Positions 10,243 to 37,701 of a DNA stretch of 64,000 nt are shown here, piece after piece (positions within the stretch are counted from its first letter, which is position 1; every line of letters starts with the position of its first letter). This DNA comes from Thermosediminibacter oceani DSM 16646 (lineage in GTDB: Bacteria; Bacillota; Thermosediminibacteria; Thermosediminibacterales; Thermosediminibacteraceae). The stretch lies in the NCBI RefSeq assembly GCF_000144645.1, contig NC_014377.1, positions 1,426,001 to 1,490,000 of the forward strand, read 5' to 3'. A model generated the notes under the pieces. It saw only the letters and a list, made by a program, of their open reading frames with translations. It made no database searches and was not told the origin of the DNA. Position numbers and translations under genes: made by a program.

Positions 10243-10315
10243 CAAAAGCTAGTACAAAAATCATCAGCTTTTTAGTAAAATTAAAGAAGATACAAAAATA
10301 TTGTGGGGCGATGAA

Positions 10316-11776
10316 ATGTTAACGAAGAAAAATCGAGAAATAATAGAGCAGGTAGAATTAGTAAGCATCGATAGCTTAGTACCTCAAGACCATCTCCTTA
10401 GGGCAGTAGAAGAAAGCATCGACTTTAATTTCATTTATGATGAAGTAAAAGACCTATATAGCGAAAATACAGGAAGACCTAGTATTGACCCGGTAGTGTT
10501 AATTAAGCTACTCATGCTCCAAGCATTGTATGGAATCCGCTCCATGCGCCAAACCATCAGAGAAGTAGAAGTCAATGTAGCTTACCGTTGGTTTTTAGGC
10601 TATGGATTACAAGAAAAAATACCTCACTTTTCAACTTTTGGAAAAAACTATGAACGGCGGTTTAAGGAAAGTGATCTATTTGAAAAGATATTCGAGCGGG
10701 TGTTGATGGAAGCAATAGAATGCGGGTTTGTTAAAACAGATGCAGTATTTATCGATGCTACTCACATAAAAGCCAGTGCCAATAAGAATAAATATATCGA
10801 GAAAGTCGCTAAGCAACGGACTCAAAAATATAAGGAAGAACTTTTAAAAGAAATCAACGCCGAACGGGAAGCAAACGGTAAAAAGCCCTTTGAAGAAGAA
10901 GATGATGATGACGATAACAACAAAGGAGAAAATAGCTCTAAAAAAGTCAGGGTAAGCACCACAGATCCTGAAAGTGGGATGTTTCAAAAAGGGGAAAAAG
11001 AGCGCTGCTTTGCCTACACAGCTTCTGTAGCCTGTGACCGGAACAACTTTGTCCTTGGTGTCAAAATAGCACCTGGAAATGTTCATGACAGCCAGGTATT
11101 CTCCCATTTATTTCAAGAAGTAAACGATAAATTTTCTAAAATAGAGGCGGTAGTGGTTGATGCAGGCTACAAAACCCCCGGGATATGCAGAGAAATCATT
11201 GAGGCAGGAGCGCTTCCCGTTATGCCCTACAAGAGGCCGATGACCAAAGATGGCTACTTTAAAAAACGCGAATACGTCTATGACGAATATTATGATTGTT
11301 ACATATGCCCCAACAACCAAATATTAGAATACAGCACCACCAACCGGGCGGGATACCGGGAATATAGGAGCAACCCCCAAATATGCTGTAAATGTCCCAT
11401 GCGCCTACAGTGCACCAAAAGTAAAAATTACACAAAAATCATAACTCGGCATATATGGGAGCATTACATAGAAATAGCGGAAGATATAAGACACACCCAA
11501 TGGGGTAAAGAACTATACAAAATGCGCGGCCAGACCATCGAGCGGGTATTTGCCGATGCGAAGGAAAAGCATGGCATGCGCTATACAAATCTACGAGGCT
11601 TGAGGAAAGTTGGACATTACCTCACGCTTCTTTTCGCATGCATGAATTTAAAAAAGCTGGCTTTATGGAAGAAAAGACGGGGAACGTTTCCGCCAACAGT
11701 CCCCGCTTTACATTCGTTTTTCTTAAAAATTTTCTTCGCCTTCAACAAAAAGCCGCTTTTAGGTTATGCATCCTAA
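10316..11776 (+). CDS. IS1182-family DDE transposase
   Basis: The protein (about 486 aa) cuts and rejoins the IS ends. The N-terminal DUF772-like part (RPSIDPVVLIKLLMLQ, YGIRSMRQ) is typical of IS1182. The probable DDE residues are D in VFIDATHIKAS, D in VVVDAGYKTPG and E in RGQTIERVFADAKEKHG. A Cys-rich knuckle (YICPNNQ, CCKCPMRLQC) precedes the last acidic residue. An acidic linker (EEEDDDDDNN) lies mid-protein. I prefer ATG at 10316 (MLTKKN) over TTG at 10301. The stop lies inside the right-end hairpin. Confidence 0.93.
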   Translation: MLTKKNREIIEQVELVSIDSLVPQDHLLRAVEESIDFNFIYDEVKDLYSENTGRPSIDPVVLIKLLMLQALYGIRSMRQTIREVEVNVAYRWFLGYGLQEKIPHFSTFGKNYERRFKESDLFEKIFERVLMEAIECGFVKTDAVFIDATHIKASANKNKYIEKVAKQRTQKYKEELLKEINAEREANGKKPFEEEDDDDDNNKGENSSKKVRVSTTDPESGMFQKGEKERCFAYTASVACDRNNFVLGVKIAPGNVHDSQVFSHLFQEVNDKFSKIEAVVVDAGYKTPGICREIIEAGALPVMPYKRPMTKDGYFKKREYVYDEYYDCYICPNNQILEYSTTNRAGYREYRSNPQICCKCPMRLQCTKSKNYTKIITRHIWEHYIEIAEDIRHTQWGKELYKMRGQTIERVFADAKEKHGMRYTNLRGLRKVGHYLTLLFACMNLKKLALWKKRRGTFPPTVPALHSFFLKIFFAFNKKPLLGYAS

Positions 11777-26744: not shown

Positions 26745-26765
26745 GAGGACCTTTAATCGGTCCTC
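26745..26765 (-). terminator. Hairpin at the end of the ornithine operon
   Basis: A 7-bp stem (GAGGACC/GGTCCTC) has the mutL-like stop codon (26753-26755) in its loop. On the minus strand a T-run follows only after 6 bases, so termination may be partial. Confidence 0.55.
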
Positions 26766-28123
26766 ACGTCATTGATTCTTAGACTTTTTTTGAGCAACTT
26801 TATCGCATCATCGGGATATTCTTTTGATAAAACTCCCGTAGAAGCCATTATATAATCCCTGTCTATTAACACCCGGGCATCCTCGCCGGGCAGCAGTTTT
26901 TTGCCGGTGGTCTTGGACCTGATTTTCTCCAGAATCCTTCTACCGCCGGGTAACCTGGTCAGGGCTCCACCGGTTCCGATTATCCACTTCACCCCGGTAA
27001 GATCCTTACCCTCCGCAACCGTATACCTGCCGGTGGGCCCGTAGAGGTGTTTTATCCCACCAGCATGGCGATTGACGGCTGTAACGGCGGCAATTTCTGT
27101 AAGAAATTCAGCCAACCACACTTCATCTTGATTTTTCGGCACCGGCGGCTGGACTTCAAGGGCGTGGCTTAAGTTGTCACCGAATTTTTTCCTCGCTTCC
27201 TCGAATCCTAAAACTTCAACCACATTATACCTGTTAACGTAAACCCCCAGATCGCCTTCAACGGTCCTTTTGGCGGCGGGTTCTGGGGCTATTAATATCC
27301 TGTTTATCTCTTCCGAACCTTCGGTAACGGAGTGAACATCCGTTGTAGCCCCGCCCACGTCTACCACAATCAGGTCCCCTATATCTTCCTTTAAAAGCAA
27401 GGCAGCCATCATCACCGCCCCCGGCGTGGGCACTATGGGACCATCCACCATAGTGCGGATTTTCTCCATTCCCGGCGCCACCACTATATGTTCTTCAAAA
27501 ACCTGCTGTATCACCCTGCGGGCCGGTTCTACGTTGAGTTCGTCGATTCTCGGATATACGTTCTCAACGAAGAACACCCTGTTTTTCCCCGAAAAAATTT
27601 CTGCCACCTCTTCCCGGGCTGCCACATTCCCCGCATAGATCACCGGGATATCCGGACAGTGCTCCGCAATCTTCCTGGCGTTTTCAATGACGGTTTTCTT
27701 TTCCCCGTAATCCACTCCACCCGCCAGCAGTATTATGTTGGGTTTTATTTTCCTTATCTTTTCCAGGTCCGACTGGCTCAAGAAACCCGCCGTCATCATG
27801 TGCAAAACGGCACCCGCGCCCAATGCTGCTTCTTTTGCCGCTTTGGCTGTCATATCGTAAACGAGGCCGTGGACGGTCATCTTGAGGCCTCCCGCGGCGC
27901 TGCTGGTGGCCATCATCCTCTTCCACTTTACTGCTTTACCCAGTCTTTTCTCCAGATCCTTCACGGCACCTTCCAGGCCAACGGTAACATCGCCCTGCAA
28001 CACCGTAGTGGGGGCAAGCCCCTGTCCCACAAATTCGGGACAGGGGGTACCCAAGCCTTTGAAGGCATTTACGAGAGTGGTGGTGCTGCCTATCTCGGCA
28101 ACAAGTACATCCACTTCTATCAC
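26753..28123 (-). CDS. MutL-type protein (reactivase of B12 aminomutase)
   Basis: An ASKHA-type ATPase related to the glutamate mutase helper MutL: phosphate-binding loops EIGSTTTLVNA (about 9-19) and VVDVGGATTDVHSV (about 254-267). Such proteins exchange damaged cobalamin in the partner mutase using ATP. It lies 17 bases after oraE, so its partner is most likely ornithine 4,5-aminomutase. The length (456 aa) fits. Confidence 0.85.
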   Translation of the reverse strand: MIEVDVLVAEIGSTTTLVNAFKGLGTPCPEFVGQGLAPTTVLQGDVTVGLEGAVKDLEKRLGKAVKWKRMMATSSAAGGLKMTVHGLVYDMTAKAAKEAALGAGAVLHMMTAGFLSQSDLEKIRKIKPNIILLAGGVDYGEKKTVIENARKIAEHCPDIPVIYAGNVAAREEVAEIFSGKNRVFFVENVYPRIDELNVEPARRVIQQVFEEHIVVAPGMEKIRTMVDGPIVPTPGAVMMAALLLKEDIGDLIVVDVGGATTDVHSVTEGSEEINRILIAPEPAAKRTVEGDLGVYVNRYNVVEVLGFEEARKKFGDNLSHALEVQPPVPKNQDEVWLAEFLTEIAAVTAVNRHAGGIKHLYGPTGRYTVAEGKDLTGVKWIIGTGGALTRLPGGRRILEKIRSKTTGKKLLPGEDARVLIDRDYIMASTGVLSKEYPDDAIKLLKKSLRINDVRTD

Positions 28124-28140: not shown

Positions 28141-30339
28141 TTACAATCTCTTTTTCTCCCTCAATTTTTTAACCAGGAAGCTGGCAACATGTATTCCCTT
28201 TGTACCGCGTCCAAACCCGGCGTCCAGCCCCGACTCCCTGGCTATATCATCGGTGACCTGAGTTCCACCTCCTACCAGCAGGACCCTGTCTCTGATGCCC
28301 TTTTCTACACACAGTTGGTGGAGTTTCCTCATGTTTATCCTGTGAATGTCGGCATGGGTAATGATGGTGCTGATGAGTATTGCATCCGCATCTATTTCTA
28401 TCGCCGCGTCTACCACCTTTTCCACCGGCACCGATGTGCCCAGATAGTGACATTCTATTCCGAAACCTTCCAGACCACCGTGTTTGATGTCTATTATCTC
28501 CCTCAGACCTACCGAATGCTCATCCTCACCCACGGTGGCAGCAACTATTTTTACGGGATTCTCCTTTACGAAATTTATTATCTCCTCCGGCGAAAGGATC
28601 TCCGGTTTCTTGGGGATTGTAAGCGACGACGGATCTATCGTGAAAGGCACCTTCCCCTTTATCTCCAGATACGTGCCTTCCGACGGGTGCATTATCTCCC
28701 TGTGGATGATTTCTGCGTCAGTAAGCCCCAATCTCTTGGCGATTTCCAAGCCCGCAGCTTCAGCTATCTCTTCTCCGACCGGCAGGAATAAATTCATGCA
28801 GACTATTCCATCGGCAAACCATTCAACTTCGGGTTTTATGAGCCCTTTTTCGCGAATCTCCCGGGTTTCTTCCAACCTTACGTGTACGTTGTCCTTCTCA
28901 TCAAGCTCATCTATATAAGCTATTTTGTCCGGATTGCAAAGGGTACACCCTCCTATCAAGTCGCAGGGATGCTCGAGGCCCTCCGGCAGATTGTTGTACC
29001 CGAAGTGGTGGCATACCGGAGCCAGGTAGTCCTTATCCCGCTTAACGACGGTTCCCGCTCCGACGCCGCCGTCGATTTTTCTCACAATCCCGTCGCCGTT
29101 CCTCTCGGGATAAAATCCCGAGTCTACGAAAAATCCCATTTCGACAGCCTTGAAGTATCCCCCTACTTCCACGATCTCTTCAAGGAACAGCACAGCCCTC
29201 TCTTTGAGTTCCCTCACTTTTTCACCGAGCGGGCCATCTCTTTTTATCTGGACCATCTCGGTTAATCCGTCCATCCCCACAAGGGCCTGTTTTGCCGTAT
29301 CCACCGCCTGTATGTTGAAGTAATGCCATGGCACGTTTCTTCCTTCATCCGGGGTAATCGTGCTCTGGATGTCGGCACCGGTGAGGCGGGAAATCAGAAG
29401 GTTGAGCACATGGGTTACCGTCGCCTCCCTCGTGCTGGACTCAATGTACTTCGTATTCATTTGGGCCCGCATCCTAAAACCCTTGAAAAGCTCCCTGAGG
29501 GCTACGGCGTACGGCAGGTCAAGCCTTATACATGGTGCCGGAGGTGCCGTCGGAGGCACCGTAGAAAGGCTAATATTTTCCTTCTTCATTCCCACCTTCA
29601 GCGAATACATGGCGTTTATGGCGTGCTGGACCATGAGCTCGGGCATGACCTTCCATGCTTCCCTGGCCGTAGCGTTGGCGTTATGGGCCCCGTCAATTTG
29701 GATCATATCGGCCCAGGCCATTATCTTTTTGGCAACCGCCGCGTCGACGAAGGAACGCACCATATTCACATTCCTGTAAAGCACGTTGTACTGGGGGTCC
29801 TGGTGGGCGCCGTTGACTCCTTCTTCGGCAAACAGTACCGCCACTTCCGGCCCTGCCACACCGCTCACATAGGAGTGAAAATTGATGGGCCTGCCCACCT
29901 CGTCCTCTATCATGTCCAGGGCCTTTCTGGTGGCCCGGAGTTGTTTTCGCGTAATGGGAACTCCGCCCACACCTTCGGGAGTACCTTCGATAAGTCCGTC
30001 AAAGTGGCTCTGCCCCGCGGTCCTTATAACCATAATGTGGTCGGCTCCGTGCCAGGCCGCCATGCGCATCCTGCGTATATCGTCCTCGAACCTGCCGGAG
30101 GCTATCTCGGTGGTAATGACATAATCGGGCTGGGGATCTATACCGCCGAAATACTTGGCTGCAGGCAGCGGAATGCTGTTTTTCAAGCCCTTCGAAGTCT
30201 CCCGGTACTCGAAGGGGCCTATTTTTTGATTTTCTACCTTCTCCCTCCAGTGCCATCCCCGCCTCCGGGGCCGGTAGTTTTCAAGGTTTTTCAGTATTTC
30301 CTCTATATTGAGCTTTTCGTTTTTTTTAAGTTCCATCAT
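28141..30339 (-). CDS. oraE: D-ornithine 4,5-aminomutase, large (E) subunit
   Basis: This enzyme moves the terminal amino group of D-ornithine to C4, giving 2,4-diaminopentanoate, with adenosylcobalamin and PLP. The catalytic barrel fills residues 1-530. The C-terminal domain has the base-off cobalamin motif D-E-H-S-V-G (near residue 608) and the GGGTQVTDDIARESG segment. The length (732 aa) is standard. Its start overlaps the oraS stop by 4 bases, which suggests translational coupling of the two subunits. Confidence 0.95.
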   Translation of the reverse strand: MMELKKNEKLNIEEILKNLENYRPRRRGWHWREKVENQKIGPFEYRETSKGLKNSIPLPAAKYFGGIDPQPDYVITTEIASGRFEDDIRRMRMAAWHGADHIMVIRTAGQSHFDGLIEGTPEGVGGVPITRKQLRATRKALDMIEDEVGRPINFHSYVSGVAGPEVAVLFAEEGVNGAHQDPQYNVLYRNVNMVRSFVDAAVAKKIMAWADMIQIDGAHNANATAREAWKVMPELMVQHAINAMYSLKVGMKKENISLSTVPPTAPPAPCIRLDLPYAVALRELFKGFRMRAQMNTKYIESSTREATVTHVLNLLISRLTGADIQSTITPDEGRNVPWHYFNIQAVDTAKQALVGMDGLTEMVQIKRDGPLGEKVRELKERAVLFLEEIVEVGGYFKAVEMGFFVDSGFYPERNGDGIVRKIDGGVGAGTVVKRDKDYLAPVCHHFGYNNLPEGLEHPCDLIGGCTLCNPDKIAYIDELDEKDNVHVRLEETREIREKGLIKPEVEWFADGIVCMNLFLPVGEEIAEAAGLEIAKRLGLTDAEIIHREIMHPSEGTYLEIKGKVPFTIDPSSLTIPKKPEILSPEEIINFVKENPVKIVAATVGEDEHSVGLREIIDIKHGGLEGFGIECHYLGTSVPVEKVVDAAIEIDADAILISTIITHADIHRINMRKLHQLCVEKGIRDRVLLVGGGTQVTDDIARESGLDAGFGRGTKGIHVASFLVKKLREKKRL

Positions 30340-30725
30340 ACCACCTCCCCTGCAGATGCAGCGCTTATTTTCACAGCCATTGCCTGTTCGATCTCATCCC
30401 AACCATCGCCTTTGGCCAGTCTTTCCCCGGCTTCCTTTATGGGAATGTTTTTGTAGAGAGCATATTTCAGCACAACGTGACCCGCGCCCTTTCCCAGCAG
30501 GCCCTTTTCTACGCATTTTTCCACTATTGCTTTGGCAGTCAGGCTGTCGAACCCCATCCGGAGCAGTACGGACCTCTCTATCGACGGAGAAGTATGGGTA
30601 CGCGCCAGTTCTATCAGAGGTTCCACTATTTTCTCCGTGAGCTCCCAGAACCTTTTTTCGAGCTCTTCTTCGCTAAGATGCGCAAGATGCTGGCGCCTTG
30701 TTTCAAAGTCATCCTTTCGCTGCAT
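30336..30725 (-). CDS. oraS: D-ornithine 4,5-aminomutase, small (S) subunit
   Basis: The 129-residue helical subunit assembles with OraE. Family features are the N-terminal RRQHLAHLSEEELEKRFW and the later LLGKGAGHVVLKYA segment. It has no cofactor site of its own. The ATG at 30725 lies 12 bases after the ortB stop. Confidence 0.93.
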   Translation of the reverse strand: MQRKDDFETRRQHLAHLSEEELEKRFWELTEKIVEPLIELARTHTSPSIERSVLLRMGFDSLTAKAIVEKCVEKGLLGKGAGHVVLKYALYKNIPIKEAGERLAKGDGWDEIEQAMAVKISAASAGEVV

Positions 30726-30737
30726 TTTCCTACCCCC

Positions 30738-32156
30738 TTAGATTGAAATCCCCAGCTCTTTTACAACCATTCTCACATAGTCTTCACTGGTCTTGGTATC
30801 TTCCGCCAGGAATTTAATGTCTTCCCCGGTCAGCTTCTGAACCTTGTAATGTTTTATGCAGTTGGAAATATAGGACTTTTTAAGGGCGTCCAGGTTGACT
30901 TCCTTAACCCTTATTTGGGCCGGGTGCTCGGGGATTACTATCCTTTCTCCTGGCTTATCGTCGGCGGGGTCTCCCCGGCGCACTTCTATGCCCATTTCTC
31001 TCGCAAAGGTGAGCTGCGCCGACGGGAGCTTGCCCGCTCCCGTGTACTCGGTTTCCTGGACGACTATGACCTGATCTTCGTCCATCTCTTGGGCTATTGC
31101 AAAAGCGGCGGCCAGAGACGTGTTGCCTGCCGGGCCCCGTTCCATACCCTCAAGCTGAGCCAAAGCTTCTGTCATGTAAAAAACTTCGCCCTGGCTTACC
31201 GTTACGTACCTGTCCAGGTAGCGCAGCGACCTGGCGGCGTTTCTGGGCACATCGGCTCTATCCGGCCATGTAGCAAAGGGAACGCCGAACCCCGTATGGC
31301 CGGTGGTGAAGGATTTCCTGTTGAAATCCCGGTCGCTGGCCATGTGGAGCCCGGTAAGGTCCACGCTGGCGCCTATAATCTTTGTATTTTTACAGCCGGC
31401 TTTCAAAAGGCCTCTGGCTGTACCGGTCACGTTACCTCCGCCCGCGTGGGTTATCACCACCGCGTCCGGGTCCCTGCCCGTAGCCGCCCTCACCTGTTCG
31501 GCCACCTCGTAGCCCAGGGTTTCGACCCCGGCTATGCCGAAGGGCGTGTAGAGCGAAGCATTAAAATATCCCGTCTCCTCGAGGAGGCAGAGAAAAGTAT
31601 AAAAGAGCTCCGGCCCCACCGAAAGCTGGATAACTTCAGCACCAAATGCTTCGCACTTTCTACCCTTTTCCAGTATCTCGGGCTGTCCCCTGCCCTCACT
31701 GTCAAAAACTTCTTGGACAACTATGCAGTTCAGCCCCCTCATGGCTGCCTGCGAGGCTACAGCCGCCCCGTAATTGCCGCTGGTGGCGGCAATCACCCCT
31801 TTAAAGCCGAGTTTTTGGGCTCTGTAGACCGAAACCGATGCCCTCCGGTCCTTGAAACTGCCCGACGGATTGCAGGCTTCGTCCTTTACAAAAATCCTGG
31901 CGCCCTTTCCTGCCGGTGCCAGCTTCCGGGCGAGCTTGGTGAGGTTTTTGAGTTCGATCAGTGGGGTATTACCAACTCCCGTCTCAGCCTGTATCTTTCT
32001 TATCTCATCTATGGTGTAACCCACTTCCTTCATCATGCGTTCGTAGTCGAAAGCTATGCTGCCCGATTCAAAGACCTGGTAATCAATCCCAACCGCCTTT
32101 TTCATAATCTCGTTTTTCCTGGCCATTACGGCCTCGTAACTCATGTCCCGGGTCAC
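30738..32156 (-). CDS. ortB: 2-amino-4-oxopentanoate thiolase, PLP subunit (OrtB)
   Basis: With OrtA it splits 2-amino-4-oxopentanoate with CoA to alanine and acetyl-CoA, the energy-yielding end of the ornithine route. It has the threonine-synthase/TrpB-like PLP fold: Lys102 in NPSGSFKDRRA and the phosphate loop HAGGGNVTG. The length (472 aa) is normal. It overlaps ortA by 4 bases. Confidence 0.93.
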   Translation of the reverse strand: MTRDMSYEAVMARKNEIMKKAVGIDYQVFESGSIAFDYERMMKEVGYTIDEIRKIQAETGVGNTPLIELKNLTKLARKLAPAGKGARIFVKDEACNPSGSFKDRRASVSVYRAQKLGFKGVIAATSGNYGAAVASQAAMRGLNCIVVQEVFDSEGRGQPEILEKGRKCEAFGAEVIQLSVGPELFYTFLCLLEETGYFNASLYTPFGIAGVETLGYEVAEQVRAATGRDPDAVVITHAGGGNVTGTARGLLKAGCKNTKIIGASVDLTGLHMASDRDFNRKSFTTGHTGFGVPFATWPDRADVPRNAARSLRYLDRYVTVSQGEVFYMTEALAQLEGMERGPAGNTSLAAAFAIAQEMDEDQVIVVQETEYTGAGKLPSAQLTFAREMGIEVRRGDPADDKPGERIVIPEHPAQIRVKEVNLDALKKSYISNCIKHYKVQKLTGEDIKFLAEDTKTSEDYVRMVVKELGISI

Positions 32157-32458
32157 CGGCCGTCACCCCCAAGTATCTTCCTCAACTCCATGCCTATCGT
32201 GAGAAGTTCAGGCACGGGCCTGCCAAAGCCGTGGTCGTATTCGGGATTTACTTTCACCAACCTGCCCTTCACCCTCCTGCCTATCAGGGTTTCGATCTCC
32301 ACTTCGTCTCCGATGCATGCGTCATGGGTGAGAAATCCCTTTAACCTGAGCTCCAGCGGCACTTTCTTCGTATCGTCCGGCAGGTGAGGCGACCTTTCTT
32401 CGGACTTGAGGACCACCCGGTGAATCTGGACCCACGTGCCTTTAACCGCATCAGGCAT
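32153..32458 (-). CDS. ortA: 2-amino-4-oxopentanoate thiolase, small subunit (OrtA)
   Basis: A 101-residue beta-rich subunit with the conserved VQIHRVVLKSEERSP start and the NPEYDHGFGRPVPELL segment. It is needed with OrtB for thiolase activity. It overlaps both neighbours (ord by 8 bases, ortB by 4 bases), so the three are tightly coupled. Confidence 0.92.
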   Translation of the reverse strand: MPDAVKGTWVQIHRVVLKSEERSPHLPDDTKKVPLELRLKGFLTHDACIGDEVEIETLIGRRVKGRLVKVNPEYDHGFGRPVPELLTIGMELRKILGGDGR

Positions 32459-33503
32459 TATTCACACCGTCCTTTGCGAGTTTTCTTATGTCTCCCATCA
32501 GGGCCGCCGGAACCGGCAGATCTTTCATGGTTACTAGGCCCGTATTAGCGCTGATAACCTTAGGAATCATATTTACCGCGATGGCAATGGTCCCTATACC
32601 TCCGGGAATTTCGGGTTTAATCGACAGTTTTATGTTTGGAGTGCCCTCAATTTCGATGTAGTCGCCGGTTTCCACATCTTCCAGCTCCGGCCTTATCTGT
32701 TGGGGGTGCTCCAGCACTATTACGGGCTCACCCTTTCTGTAGCCTATGCCTGTATGTTTGCAGCCCGCCACCATGCCCGGTTCGACCCTGGCATAAGGGG
32801 TTTCCCTGTAGACGTTGGAAACGATGGGCTCTCTCATCTCTCTGATCTCATCGATTTCAAGTCCCAAAGCTTCGGAGATCAGGCTTATGGACTCCGGAAA
32901 ACCGATGTGGCCCACAATAGTCCCTTCCTCAAGGCCCTTCCGGAACTCATCAACGGTGGTGCCTACACCCTGGGTTCTCATAACCGTGGTCCCGAAGGGA
33001 GAAAGGTCGTTTATTCTTCTCGCGGTGATTTTCTTTATGTCCATGCAGACACCGCTCAGTGCAATAATGAGCGTATCCAGCACGAATCCGGGATTGATAC
33101 CGGTGCCCAACACCGTTACTCCATGGTCTTTCGCCATTTTATCTATTTTTGCAGCGAGCTCGGGTTCCCTGTATGCCGGATAAGCCATCTCCTCGGCGAT
33201 GGTGATTACATTTTTACCACTTGCTATAATCCTCTGCAGTTGAGGATAAACCTCTCTGGTAAAAGAAGAGGTGGCAAGCAGCACAATGTCAGCGGGCTGT
33301 TTTAAAACGGTTTCCGGGTCGCAAGAAATCGTCACCCCGGTTTTTAAGCCAAGATCCAGCACTTCGCCCAGGTCCTTGCCGCTTTTTTCGGGCCTGGAAG
33401 CTATAGCTCCAACTATCTCCATACCTTTTTTCTGCAAAATCATCCTGGCCATGCCTCCGCCCATGGCGCCGAGGCCCCAGATAATGACTCTTATTTTTTC
33501 CAT
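32451..33503 (-). CDS. ord: 2,4-diaminopentanoate dehydrogenase
   Basis: This DapB-like enzyme oxidatively deaminates 2,4-diaminopentanoate to 2-amino-4-oxopentanoate with NAD(P)+. The dinucleotide loop is WGLGAMGGGMA (about 9-19), followed by a DapB-type catalytic domain with GINPGFVLD. The length (350 aa) is typical. It is the first gene of the ord-ortA-ortB-oraS-oraE-mutL operon, 50 bases after a sigma-54 promoter. Confidence 0.93.
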   Translation of the reverse strand: MEKIRVIIWGLGAMGGGMARMILQKKGMEIVGAIASRPEKSGKDLGEVLDLGLKTGVTISCDPETVLKQPADIVLLATSSFTREVYPQLQRIIASGKNVITIAEEMAYPAYREPELAAKIDKMAKDHGVTVLGTGINPGFVLDTLIIALSGVCMDIKKITARRINDLSPFGTTVMRTQGVGTTVDEFRKGLEEGTIVGHIGFPESISLISEALGLEIDEIREMREPIVSNVYRETPYARVEPGMVAGCKHTGIGYRKGEPVIVLEHPQQIRPELEDVETGDYIEIEGTPNIKLSIKPEIPGGIGTIAIAVNMIPKVISANTGLVTMKDLPVPAALMGDIRKLAKDGVNNA

Positions 33504-33553: not shown

Positions 33554-33569
33554 AGCAAATTTTATGCCA
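33554..33569 (-). promoter_or_regulatory. Sigma-54 (-24/-12) promoter of the ornithine operon
   Basis: On the minus strand TGGCAT, five bases and TTGCT match the sigma-54 consensus TGGCAC-N5-TTGCW, with GG and GC ten bases apart. It lies 50 bases upstream of ord and downstream of the nhaC terminator. A sigma-54 activator gene lies in the same cluster (36280-37701). Confidence 0.82.
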
Positions 33570-33581
33570 ATCTTTTTTGGC

Positions 33582-33609
33582 TTTTATTGCAATATTTTTG
33601 GCAATAAAA
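33582..33609. promoter_or_regulatory. Perfect 9-bp inverted repeat, candidate activator site
   Basis: TTTTATTGC and GCAATAAAA are separated by 10 bases, 12 bases upstream of the -24 element. A dyad like this suits the Fis-type helix-turn-helix of the nearby sigma-54 activator. It is closer to the promoter than most such sites, so it could instead be part of another control. Confidence 0.5.
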
Positions 33610-33631
33610 AATACCCTCATCATAGAGGGTA
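33605..33631 (-). terminator. Terminator of the NhaC-type antiporter gene
   Basis: On the minus strand TACCCTC/GAGGGTA form a 7-bp stem with a 6-base loop followed by TTTTTTATT. It separates the antiporter unit from the ornithine operon and overlaps one arm of the inverted repeat at 33582-33609. Confidence 0.85.
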
Positions 33632-33676: not shown

Positions 33677-35062
33677 TCATTCATCCTCGCGAAGCTTTTC
33701 AATCGTAAAACCTGTAAAACCGTATATTATCGAAACGATGGGGTTGATATAGTTCAGAAATGCCCAGGGGCCGTATGCGAAAGCCGAGATCCCCAGGACC
33801 CCCTTTATAAAGGCGCCGCAAGTGTTCCACGGGACTAACGGCGATGTAAGTGTCCCTGCATCCTCCAGAGCTCTTGAGAGATTCTTCGGATGAAGCCCTT
33901 TCTCCCTGTAAGCCCTGGCGTACAATCTTCCGGGCAGTATTATCGAAATGTACTGTTCGGGCAGCAGCATGTTACTGGCTACGCACGTCAAAACAGTGCT
34001 GCATATCAGAGCTCCGACGCTTCTTACCTTTCTGAGCAAAGCTTCAAGCAGAACCTCCAGCTGGCCGGTTTTTTCCATAATGCCTCCGAACATCATCGAG
34101 GCTATCACCAGGGAAATGGAGTACATCATTGACGTCATTCCTCCGGCGCTCAGCAGATCATCGATCATCTGGTTGCCGGTCTCGCTCACAAAGCCCGAAT
34201 ACCCTGCGCTGATGATCTTCCCCAGGTCCGCGTTCTGAAATATGAAAGCTTCCACGGCGCCCAGGATCACGCCTAATGCGATGCCGGGAATGGCGGGAAC
34301 CTTGAGGGCCACGCAAAGAATAACCGTCAGAGGTGGTATGAGGAGCAGCGGGTTTATTGTGAATTGAGAAGCTAAAGCGCTTTTTATGGCGTTTATTTCG
34401 TTTACATCTATGGAACCGCCGCTGAACCTGAAGCCTATTACCGTATACAAAGCAGCGGCAATGGCATAACTTACGCCGGTCGTGAAGATCATGTGCTTTA
34501 CGTGGGTAAAGACATCGGTTCCGGCTACCGCCGGTGCCAGGTTGGTAGTATCGGAAAGCGGTGACATTTTGTCACCGAAGTACGCTCCGGAAATTATCGC
34601 CCCGGCGACCAAAGCCGGAGGCATGCCCAAACCCTGCCCGATACCCATGAGGGCTATACCAATAGTGCCAACCGTTCCCCAGGAGGTACCGGTAGCCAAC
34701 GAAACTATAGAACAGATCAGCAGTGTAGCAAGTAGAAATATTTTGGGAGTTAAAAGCCCTAGGCCGTAGTAAATCATCGAAGGTACCACACCGGCTACAA
34801 TCCATACGCCGATCAATACACCGATGATGACCAATATTATGACTGACTGCAGGGCCTGATATATTCCTTCCATCATGCCCTTTTCGATTTCTTCCCAGCT
34901 GTACCCTGCACGGAAGGCAACGATGCTAGCGAAAATAGAACCTATCAACATAGGCACGTGTGGGTCGGTATGGTATTTCACAAGGGATACGGCCATGACA
35001 ACGATGAGTCCCAATACAGAAAATAGAGCTTCGTAAAGATATGGTTTTCTCGGAATTTTCAT
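33677..35062 (-). CDS. NhaC-type Na+/H+ antiporter family protein
   Basis: About 11 membrane helices with NhaC-family features such as GTSWGTVGTIGIALMGIG and GAYFGDKMSPLSDTTNLAPA. NhaC members exchange Na+ for H+; some relatives exchange amino acids or acids. Its place between the ornithine racemase and the ornithine operon hints at uptake of ornithine or ion balance during ornithine fermentation, which is inference. It has its own extended -10 promoter and terminator. Confidence 0.85.
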   Translation of the reverse strand: MKIPRKPYLYEALFSVLGLIVVMAVSLVKYHTDPHVPMLIGSIFASIVAFRAGYSWEEIEKGMMEGIYQALQSVIILVIIGVLIGVWIVAGVVPSMIYYGLGLLTPKIFLLATLLICSIVSLATGTSWGTVGTIGIALMGIGQGLGMPPALVAGAIISGAYFGDKMSPLSDTTNLAPAVAGTDVFTHVKHMIFTTGVSYAIAAALYTVIGFRFSGGSIDVNEINAIKSALASQFTINPLLLIPPLTVILCVALKVPAIPGIALGVILGAVEAFIFQNADLGKIISAGYSGFVSETGNQMIDDLLSAGGMTSMMYSISLVIASMMFGGIMEKTGQLEVLLEALLRKVRSVGALICSTVLTCVASNMLLPEQYISIILPGRLYARAYREKGLHPKNLSRALEDAGTLTSPLVPWNTCGAFIKGVLGISAFAYGPWAFLNYINPIVSIIYGFTGFTIEKLREDE

Positions 35063-35100
35063 TCAATTAAACCTCCCGTGTTTTATAATTTTTTTAAAGT

Positions 35101-35109
35101 ATTATACCA
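35101..35109 (-). promoter_or_regulatory. Extended -10 promoter of the antiporter gene
   Basis: TGGTATAAT on the minus strand lies 38 bases before the start codon. No clear -35 is seen, which is usual for extended -10 promoters. Confidence 0.55.
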
Positions 35110-35176
35110 AAAAATCATTAAAAAAAGGATTTGCCATTTACAAATTTTTTGCAGTTGATGATAAAATTTTTGCATA

Positions 35177-36244
35177 TCAGACCGGAACCTTGTCCACATA
35201 AGGTGAAGTCATAAGGCTGAGCATGGCTCCGTAAGACATCCGGAATTCCACCACCGAACCCACTCTTATGTCCCGCTTTGCTCGGGTGACGTCAAGCAAA
35301 AGGTGATCGCTGCTTGCGCCTAGGATCTCTATGGATTCATCTAAAGGAATAAGCCCTTCTATCCTGCAGTCCTGCTTACCCAATGCTACTATAGCTCTCT
35401 TCATCGGCCCCCGGTCTTCAAAAACCGGTATATTTCCAAAAGCGTCCCGGCCTATCTCGCCGATTGGCTTGGAAGGCTTTACTTTTACTTCTATTATTTC
35501 TGCCTTCAATACCATAGTCGCCTGGGATGTCCCCGGCACGTTCCTGCCGTTAGTAGGGTCGGTTCCAAGGAGTATGCCTTCGCCGATTCTCAATTGGTTC
35601 ACGCCGGGAGCAATCCGCCCGTTTTCCACCAACTTCAGTGTAGCCGTATTGCCGCCGGAAATGGTTTTTACCCTGACCCCGTACCTTTTTTCAATATCCC
35701 TTGCCAAATCCACAAGAATCTTTGTATTTTCATAACTGGGCAGCACCCCGCCATAACATCCGACATTCGTCCCTAAGCCTTCAAATTCCACACCGGGCAT
35801 TTCTAGAATCCGTCCTACGACCTCAGGCACATCCTCGGGCATTACGCCTTCTCTGAGGTCGCCCACATCCACCATCAGGATAACCCTGTGGATCTTACCC
35901 AGGGCTCGTGCCTTTTCCGAAAGCAGGTCTATCACTTCCGGTTCGGAGTTGAAACTCCCATCAGCCCACCGCACAACTTCTTCAACTTCGGACGGCATGG
36001 GTATCCTTATGAGATATATCGGTATCTCCAGCCCTGAGCATTTCATATTTTTTATATTCTTTATACGGGAGTCCCCGAGCTTTTTGACACCCCCGTCCAC
36101 CATCGTCCTGACGACGGGCAGCAGGGCACAGAAACCTTTGGTAATTCCCATCACCTCGATGCCGGATCTTTTGCACAAATCTACGATGTACCTTGCATTT
36201 TCCCGGATCAGCGAGAGATTAATTTCGATCCTAGGATAGGTCAA
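35177..36244 (-). CDS. orr: Ornithine racemase (alanine-racemase fold)
   Basis: The PLP barrel of the alanine racemase type: the PLP lysine is in GITKGFCALLP (about residue 36). The sequence resembles the ornithine racemase of clostridial ornithine fermenters, which supplies D-ornithine for OraS/OraE. I chose TTG at 36244 (MTYPRIEIN) because GGAGGTG lies 6 bases upstream; the longer frame starts inside that site. A sigma-54-like promoter lies 28 bases before the start. Confidence 0.88.
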   Translation of the reverse strand: MTYPRIEINLSLIRENARYIVDLCKRSGIEVMGITKGFCALLPVVRTMVDGGVKKLGDSRIKNIKNMKCSGLEIPIYLIRIPMPSEVEEVVRWADGSFNSEPEVIDLLSEKARALGKIHRVILMVDVGDLREGVMPEDVPEVVGRILEMPGVEFEGLGTNVGCYGGVLPSYENTKILVDLARDIEKRYGVRVKTISGGNTATLKLVENGRIAPGVNQLRIGEGILLGTDPTNGRNVPGTSQATMVLKAEIIEVKVKPSKPIGEIGRDAFGNIPVFEDRGPMKRAIVALGKQDCRIEGLIPLDESIEILGASSDHLLLDVTRAKRDIRVGSVVEFRMSYGAMLSLMTSPYVDKVPV

Positions 36245-36271
36245 AGCAATCACCTCCAGCAAAATTCTTTA

Positions 36272-36287
36272 TGCAATTCTTATTCCA
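36272..36287 (-). promoter_or_regulatory. Possible sigma-54 promoter of orr
   Basis: TGGAAT, five bases and TTGCA keep the essential GG-N10-GC spacing on the minus strand. It overlaps the stop of the activator gene (36280), so transcription of orr could be raised separately from the activator. Confidence 0.5.
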
Positions 36288-37701
36288 TATTCAGCCTTCT
36301 CATCCTGTACTGGAGGGTCTGTCGCTTAACTTTCAATCTGTCTGCCGCCTTTGTCACGTTGCCGTTGCATTCTTTTATGGTCCTTTTAATGATTTCTTTT
36401 TCAATCTTACTAAGTATCTCGTCAAGGGAATAATTTTCTAATTCCATAAAGGCAAGAAGATCCGCTCCGGTTTTTTCCGACTTTCTGTTCAAATAATCGG
36501 TAATGTAAAACGGCAGGTGTTCTTCTTCTATCAAAGACTCATCTCCTATCATATTCATAGAACCCTCAATGACGTTCTCCAGTTCCCTCACGTTGCCGGG
36601 CCAGTTGTATTCCATAAAAATGCGTTTAACCGCCGGGGAAATGTCGATCACATTCCTGTTCAGTTTTTTGTTGAACTTATCTATAAAGTGGCGTGTGAGG
36701 AGGATTATGTCCTCTTTCCTTTCCCTCAGGGGCGGAATTTTCACGCAGACGACTCCCAGCCGGAAGAAGAGGTCTTTCCTTAATATTCCCTTTTCTACAG
36801 CCTGCAGAGGATCCTCATTGGTCGTAGCGATTATCCTTACGTTTACCGGTATGGTCCTGGTATCGCCGATCCTCCTTACACAACCTTCCTGCAGTACTCT
36901 CAAGAGTTTTGCCTGAAGGTTTATGCCCATGGAATTTATCTCATCTAAAAGCAGGGTACCTCCGTGGGCCTGCTCAAAAAGCCCGGGTCTGTCCACCGCG
37001 CCGGTAAAGCTCCCTTTTACCGTACCGAACAGGATCCCCTCAAGAAGGCTTTCTGGGAGTGCTGCACAGTTCTGTGCGATAAAAGGCCTTCCTTTTCGCG
37101 GACTTGCGTTGTGTATGCTATGTGCGAACAACTCTTTTCCTGTACCCGTTTCTCCGAATATTAGCACCGAAGAAGAGGTCATAGAGGCTTTCCTCGCCAT
37201 GTGGATCGCTTTTGTAATCGCCGGACTTTCGCCGATTATGTCTTCAAAAGTAAACCTGGTAAACGGGTGGGGCATTTCCCGTGAAACTTTTATTTTTGTA
37301 GAATCCTGTAAAAATACCACCTTTTCTGCCATTTCCCTGAGTTTTGTAATATCTTTGGCGATTTCCACGGCTCCCATTATTTTATTGCCTTTCTTCAGCG
37401 GCAGCGTGGTGTTGATGGTGGTTATCCGCTGTCCCCTGTAGTTAAAATAGGTTTGCACGCGATCGACAATAGCTTCTCCCGTTTTCAGCACCCTGAATAG
37501 GGTGCTGGTCTCACGGTTAAGTGATGGAAACACCTCCAGCAGTTTTTTGCCTATGACGGCGTCGGGGTCAAGCCTCTCCAGCCTGCCCATAGCCGCATTA
37601 TAAAAAACCGTATTTCCCTCGCGGTCTACTATATGGATACCAACATCCAGGCTGTTGAGTATCTCATCGTAAAATTCGTTCAGAAATTCGGCGGACATCA
37701 T
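36280..37701 (-). CDS. Sigma-54-dependent activator with PAS domain (RocR-like)
   Basis: Domains in order: PAS sensor (about residues 10-120), AAA+ ATPase (150-385) with Walker A GETGTGKE (183-190) and Walker B LLLDE (250-254), and a Fis-type helix-turn-helix (about 445-470). The sigma-54 contact loop reads GSFTGA (230-235) instead of the common GAFTGA. Its neighbours and the sigma-54 promoter at 33554 make it the likely activator of ornithine breakdown. The ligand of the PAS domain is unknown. Confidence 0.9.
   Translation of the reverse strand: MMSAEFLNEFYDEILNSLDVGIHIVDREGNTVFYNAAMGRLERLDPDAVIGKKLLEVFPSLNRETSTLFRVLKTGEAIVDRVQTYFNYRGQRITTINTTLPLKKGNKIMGAVEIAKDITKLREMAEKVVFLQDSTKIKVSREMPHPFTRFTFEDIIGESPAITKAIHMARKASMTSSSVLIFGETGTGKELFAHSIHNASPRKGRPFIAQNCAALPESLLEGILFGTVKGSFTGAVDRPGLFEQAHGGTLLLDEINSMGINLQAKLLRVLQEGCVRRIGDTRTIPVNVRIIATTNEDPLQAVEKGILRKDLFFRLGVVCVKIPPLRERKEDIILLTRHFIDKFNKKLNRNVIDISPAVKRIFMEYNWPGNVRELENVIEGSMNMIGDESLIEEEHLPFYITDYLNRKSEKTGADLLAFMELENYSLDEILSKIEKEIIKRTIKECNGNVTKAADRLKVKRQTLQYRMRRLNME

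Follow-up and report, generated by a model that had tools for sequence, protein, structure and literature searches.

A putative OrdR/sigma-54-dependent control region before the ornithine fermentation operon of Thermosediminibacter oceani

The ornithine fermentation genes of Thermosediminibacter oceani DSM 16646 raise the question of how their transcription is controlled, and whether the OrdR/sigma-54 system described in Clostridiales is also found here. In the part drawn on here, Nie et al. 2019 (PMC6615313) predicted OrdR/sigma-54 control of ord-ortBA-oraSEF-orr-nhaC in five species, none of them from the Thermosediminibacteraceae, and examined sigma-54 binding for promoters other than that of ord. 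In C. difficile, a -24/-12 promoter has been mapped upstream of ord (PMC7438776, Table 4: CD0442, regulator CD0441/OrdR), and the fold change for ord in the sigL mutant is entered as NR in that table. Within the sections of these two papers used here, neither demonstrates that OrdR binds at ord or that ornithine induces ord.

We analysed a stretch of 64,000 nucleotides of the genome (the window), in which the genes ordR-orr-nhaC-ord-ortA-ortB-oraS-oraE-glmL lie in this order, all on the minus strand (Table 1). The gene names ord-ortA-ortB-oraS-oraE-mutL given in an earlier sequence-only reading of this DNA stand, except that its "mutL" is a GlmL-related protein and not the mismatch-repair MutL. 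The start of orr is probably a TTG nearer 36244. Among named organisms, the closest relative is Thermosediminibacter litoriperuensis, whose Ord protein is 93% identical. Elsewhere in the window (10301-11776), a transposase-like gene lies near two small possible coat-protein-like frames.

Table 1. Features of the ornithine gene cluster and its putative control region (window positions)
Feature	Position	Strand	Basis
GlmL/MutL-family ornithine degradation protein (glmL)	26753..28123	-	NF040744
D-ornithine 4,5-aminomutase large subunit (oraE)	28141..30339	-	NF040743, 1445 bits
D-ornithine aminomutase small subunit (oraS)	30336..30725	-	position and conservation; no NCBIfam match
2-amino-4-oxopentanoate thiolase subunit (ortB)	30738..32156	-	NF040741
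2-amino-4-oxopentanoate thiolase subunit (ortA)	32153..32458	-	NF040739
2,4-diaminopentanoate dehydrogenase (ord)	32451..33503	-	NF040740, 557 bits
Predicted sigma-54 -24/-12 promoter TGGCATAAAATTTGCT for ord-ortA-ortB-oraS-oraE-glmL	33554..33569	-	pattern scan and conservation
9-bp perfect dyad TTTTATTGC-N10-GCAATAAAA, only central part conserved	33582..33609	not assigned	
Candidate activator-site core (upstream activating sequence), TGCCAAAAATATTGCA on minus strand, GC-N10-GC	33588..33603	not assigned	motif match
Predicted intrinsic nhaC terminator with stem at 33612-33631 and T-rich tail into dyad	33602..33631	-	predicted; conserved in relatives
nhaC-type antiporter, upstream of ord promoter	33677..35062	-	TIGR00931, above cut-off
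Probable remnant of a second promoter region, before nhaC	35094..35174	-	sequence and relatives
Ornithine racemase (orr)	35177..36262	-	NF040742, 457 bits, just under 480-bit cut-off
Weak candidate sigma-54 site TGGAATAAGAATTGCA before orr, overlapping activator stop codon	36272..36287	-	one mismatch
PAS/AAA+/Fis enhancer-binding protein, assigned as OrdR orthologue from gene neighbourhood and similarity	36280..37701	-	Pfam PF08448, PF00158, PF02954

Read along the minus strand, the end of nhaC is followed by a terminator hairpin, a dyad, 12 bp, the element TGGCATAAAATTTGCT, and then 50 nt to the ord ATG (33503). We found that TGGCATAAAATTTGCT is a consensus -24/-12 element that fits TGGCA-N6-TTGC with the exact GG-N10-GC spacing, so that the near-perfect promoter placed 50 bases before ord by the sequence-only reading is borne out. 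The pattern TGGCAYN5TTGCW has 13 matches in the 2.28-Mb genome and 2 in the 64-kb window, compared to 0.14 expected in the window; the second window match (9787) lies antisense within a possible coding region, is not closely followed by any gene start and appears to be a chance match. The genome also encodes rpoN (E 4e-62), the absence of which had been named beforehand as an argument against the proposal. A weak match to the RpoN DNA-binding domain (genome 1414844-1415023) lies inside a 1019-aa frame, which adjoins two sigma-54 promoters (genome 1411400 and 1411995) and may possibly encode a LevR-type activator.

We considered that the housekeeping sigma factor might instead transcribe ord from a sigma-A-like sequence, TTGGCA-N18-TATTAT (33570-33541), that overlaps the sigma-54 site on the same strand and matches 10/12 consensus positions, in which case the -24/-12 match would be coincidental or secondary. 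However, a shuffled region is expected to contain 1.6 matches of this quality, and the -10 part is not conserved in relatives, unlike GG-N10-GC, which all six genomes of the family retain, as do most of the activator-linked loci described below. We regard this alternative as highly improbable.

To place the promoter in a wider context, we assembled a set of 112 distinct ord loci, the majority of them from Bacillota, and called promoters within 300 bp before ord with a weighted -24/-12 score requiring GG-N10-GC. A promoter was present in 44/50 loci with a PAS/AAA+/Fis gene within about 10 kb, compared to 10/62 loci without one (uncorrected for kinship, and with some contigs in the latter class too short to reveal a neighbouring activator); in shuffled upstream regions, the call was made in 2%. 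Given these two limits, the Fisher value for the contrast is not to be read at face value. In most cases, the promoters in loci with an activator were located 50-72 nt before the start codon. A missing rpoN might have explained the promoterless loci, but we rejected this idea, as rpoN is nearly universal, found in 38/40 ord genomes tested. Thus, it is the activator, not rpoN, that discriminates the loci with a promoter, and the association of promoter with activator gene is strong enough for the control of ord operons to be predicted from sequence.

The corresponding gene in the window, which the sequence-only reading had correctly recognized as encoding a PAS/AAA+/Fis activator, specifies PAS, sigma-54 interaction and Fis domains, and is linked to the ornithine genes as in an OrdR-type regulon; similar genes adjoin ord in relatives. 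Its Walker A motif is GETGTGKE, and its sigma-54 contact loop, GSFTGA, is of the GAFTGA type. Among 48 orthologues the contact loop reads GGFTGA in 22, GSFTGA in 19 and GAFTGA in 4. The best-scoring NCBIfam model for this protein is that of PrdR (NF041552), the activator of proline Stickland fermentation, which shares the same domain logic; with 404 bits against a 795-bit cut-off, we nevertheless conclude that the activator is not PrdR.

The sequence-only reading had noted a perfect 9-bp dyad 12 bases upstream of the promoter, and we indeed found an exact dyad (33582-33590 and 33601-33609, with a 10-nt gap), the full 28-bp pattern of which is unique in the genome. By itself, however, this dyad is weak evidence: the spacer that holds it is 79% AT, and a 9-bp perfect dyad occurs in 14% of its dinucleotide shuffles. 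We therefore tested conservation by running an EM search for palindromic motifs on 40 sequences from upstream of the -24 box, with the window's family excluded. While exact counting of TGC-Nn-GCA gave no clear signal, a motif appeared once we allowed GC-N10-GC with A/T flanks. This motif, TGCAAAAATTTTTGCA (that is, TGCAAA-N4-TTTGCA, most informative at GC-N10-GC), reached a log-likelihood of 234, compared to 39-44 for eight shuffled sets. It is shared before ord across species, as in an OrdR-type regulon. In the loci without activator and promoter, the motif was found at p<=0.05 in 3/49, about the chance number. Sites often occurred in tandem at 20-25 bp (23/34 pairs), equal to two helical turns, a spacing that resembles that of enhancer sites. 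For comparison, the PrdR motif is given as TGT-N10-12-ACA in the part of Nie et al. (PMC6615313) drawn on here, versus TGC-N10-GCA in our loci.

The centre of the window's dyad fits this independently learned motif well. The 16-bp core TGCCAAAAATATTGCA scores 16.1 bits, is the best match in the 64 kb and the sole one above 14 bits, and its score was equalled or beaten in only 10/5000 shuffles; this conserved core is the strong part of the dyad evidence. Since the motif from other families matches and all six held-out family genomes carry it, the dyad centre is very probably the enhancer site of the activator. The check proposed by the sequence-only reading, whether the same dyad precedes the ornithine genes of relatives, thus comes out positive for the GC-N10-GC core; it does not for the outer A/T arms, which are not conserved and look incidental.

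We also considered that the sigma-54 promoter is real, but that the dyad arose as a side effect of the AT-rich tail of the terminator, with the activator acting either in solution or from more distal upstream sites. The frequency of 9-bp dyads in shuffles is in line with this idea, as are the facts that the terminator tail supplies one arm, that very little DNA separates the site from the -24 box and that half-sites exist before nhaC. Yet the agreement of the core with a motif from other families argues against it, every family member has such a core (26, 50 or 160 bp from the -24 box), and there is no other site of at least 4 bits within 220 bp upstream of the window's ord promoter, which leaves this promoter with one activator site. 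We consider this explanation unlikely.

Matches to the core elsewhere in the genome do not support a wider OrdR regulon: only 1/22 with surroundings checked sits at a sigma-54 promoter, and this one fronts an altronate-dehydratase-like gene pair with its own activator: the promoter (genome 652840-652855) lies between a PAS/AAA+/Fis gene and the altronate-dehydratase-like genes, and the activator-like site, of 13.3 bits, is 58 bp upstream of it. At two other ord loci (L131 and L132), the -24/-12 promoter is accompanied by a different palindrome, TGCCGAAATATCGGCA, perhaps a site for another activator.

The dyad also overlaps the terminator of the antiporter gene, as the sequence-only reading had observed: the hairpin ACCCTC-TATGAT-GAGGGT is followed by a T-tail that reaches 33602-33611 and runs into the dyad. 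This arrangement might allow a dual role, compatible with control of ord from the same site, in which the activator, once bound, would also stop or modify transcription that arrives from nhaC. Such a role would be in keeping with the joining of terminator tail and enhancer core seen in each of the six family genomes, but the predicted nhaC terminator is good without help and, outside the family, the site is usually without such a terminator; we think a dual role improbable.

What sets the window apart is the spacing. The centre of its core lies 26 bp from the -24 box, the closest among 39 promoters (others 47 to 207 bp), which would put it at about -52 relative to the predicted transcription start; this single, unusually close site counts against the activator-dependent reading. 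According to the part of Nie et al. 2019 (PMC6615313) used here, most activator sites are 100-250 bp upstream. In the family, the distance from core centre to the -24 T is 50 bp in four genomes and 160 bp in T. litoriperuensis, where there is extra sequence between core and -24 box. We tentatively suggest, as a possibility somewhat short of even, that a deletion moved the OrdR enhancer to its present position and that the activator works beside the polymerase, where hardly any DNA is left for looping. If so, the window and its relatives, with 47-207 bp between site and -24 box, would form a natural series on minimal enhancer distance.

Overall, we consider it highly likely that this is an OrdR/sigma-54-dependent control region of an ornithine fermentation operon, with the activator on the core TGCCAAAAATATTGCA. 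Judging from sequence and conservation, sigma-54 RNA polymerase would wait as a closed complex on TGGCATAAAATTTGCT, and the activator, encoded 2.7 kb upstream, would bind the palindromic core as a dimer through its Fis-type helix-turn-helix, as the motif match suggests. On a signal sensed by the PAS domain, probably ornithine or a related metabolite, the activator would then assemble into its ATPase form and open the complex, which would drive ord-ortA-ortB-oraS-oraE-glmL; the preceding terminator would insulate the promoter from nhaC transcription. Sigma-54 control of this operon by the cluster's own activator, as first proposed from the DNA, is well supported comparatively, in that the promoter tracks the activator gene and an independent motif matches the dyad centre.

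The wiring has already been described in C. difficile and others, and the window appears to be a well-supported further example, in which the new elements are a useful motif and an odd spacing. Like the Clostridiales regulon as presented in the sections of PMC6615313 used here, it combines an enhancer-binding activator, ord-ort-ora-orr-nhaC genes, a -24/-12 promoter and an upstream activator site, but the gene order (ordR-orr-nhaC-ord onwards) differs and far less DNA separates the site from the promoter. Likewise, the ord operon of C. difficile 630, in the portion of PMC7438776 consulted, combines a -24/-12 promoter before ord with an adjacent gene for an enhancer-binding protein, in a different gene order. 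OrdR/sigma-54 control of ornithine (Stickland-type) fermentation would thus extend beyond the clostridia where it was first described, and the 16-bp activator motif is a concrete one, with position and mutation predictions.

Other parts of the cluster carry traces of similar promoters. Before nhaC, where a scan found no sigma-A promoter, there are two activator half-sites 21 bp apart (35174-35161 and 35153-35139) and the sequence TGGTATAATACTTTAA at 35109-35094, which is without the -12 GC; sister genomes have TGGTATNTAAATTGCA. The weak candidate site before orr is kept in two sister genomes, and in the other family genomes orr is preceded by perfect sites. This pattern suggests an ancestral three-promoter regulon that may have partly decayed in the window. 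In Fervidicola and Thermovorax (L054-L056), separate perfect -24/-12 elements precede nhaC and orr, about 1.6 and 4.6 kb upstream of ord, and the activator sites before nhaC are paired and overlapping, sharing a GC.
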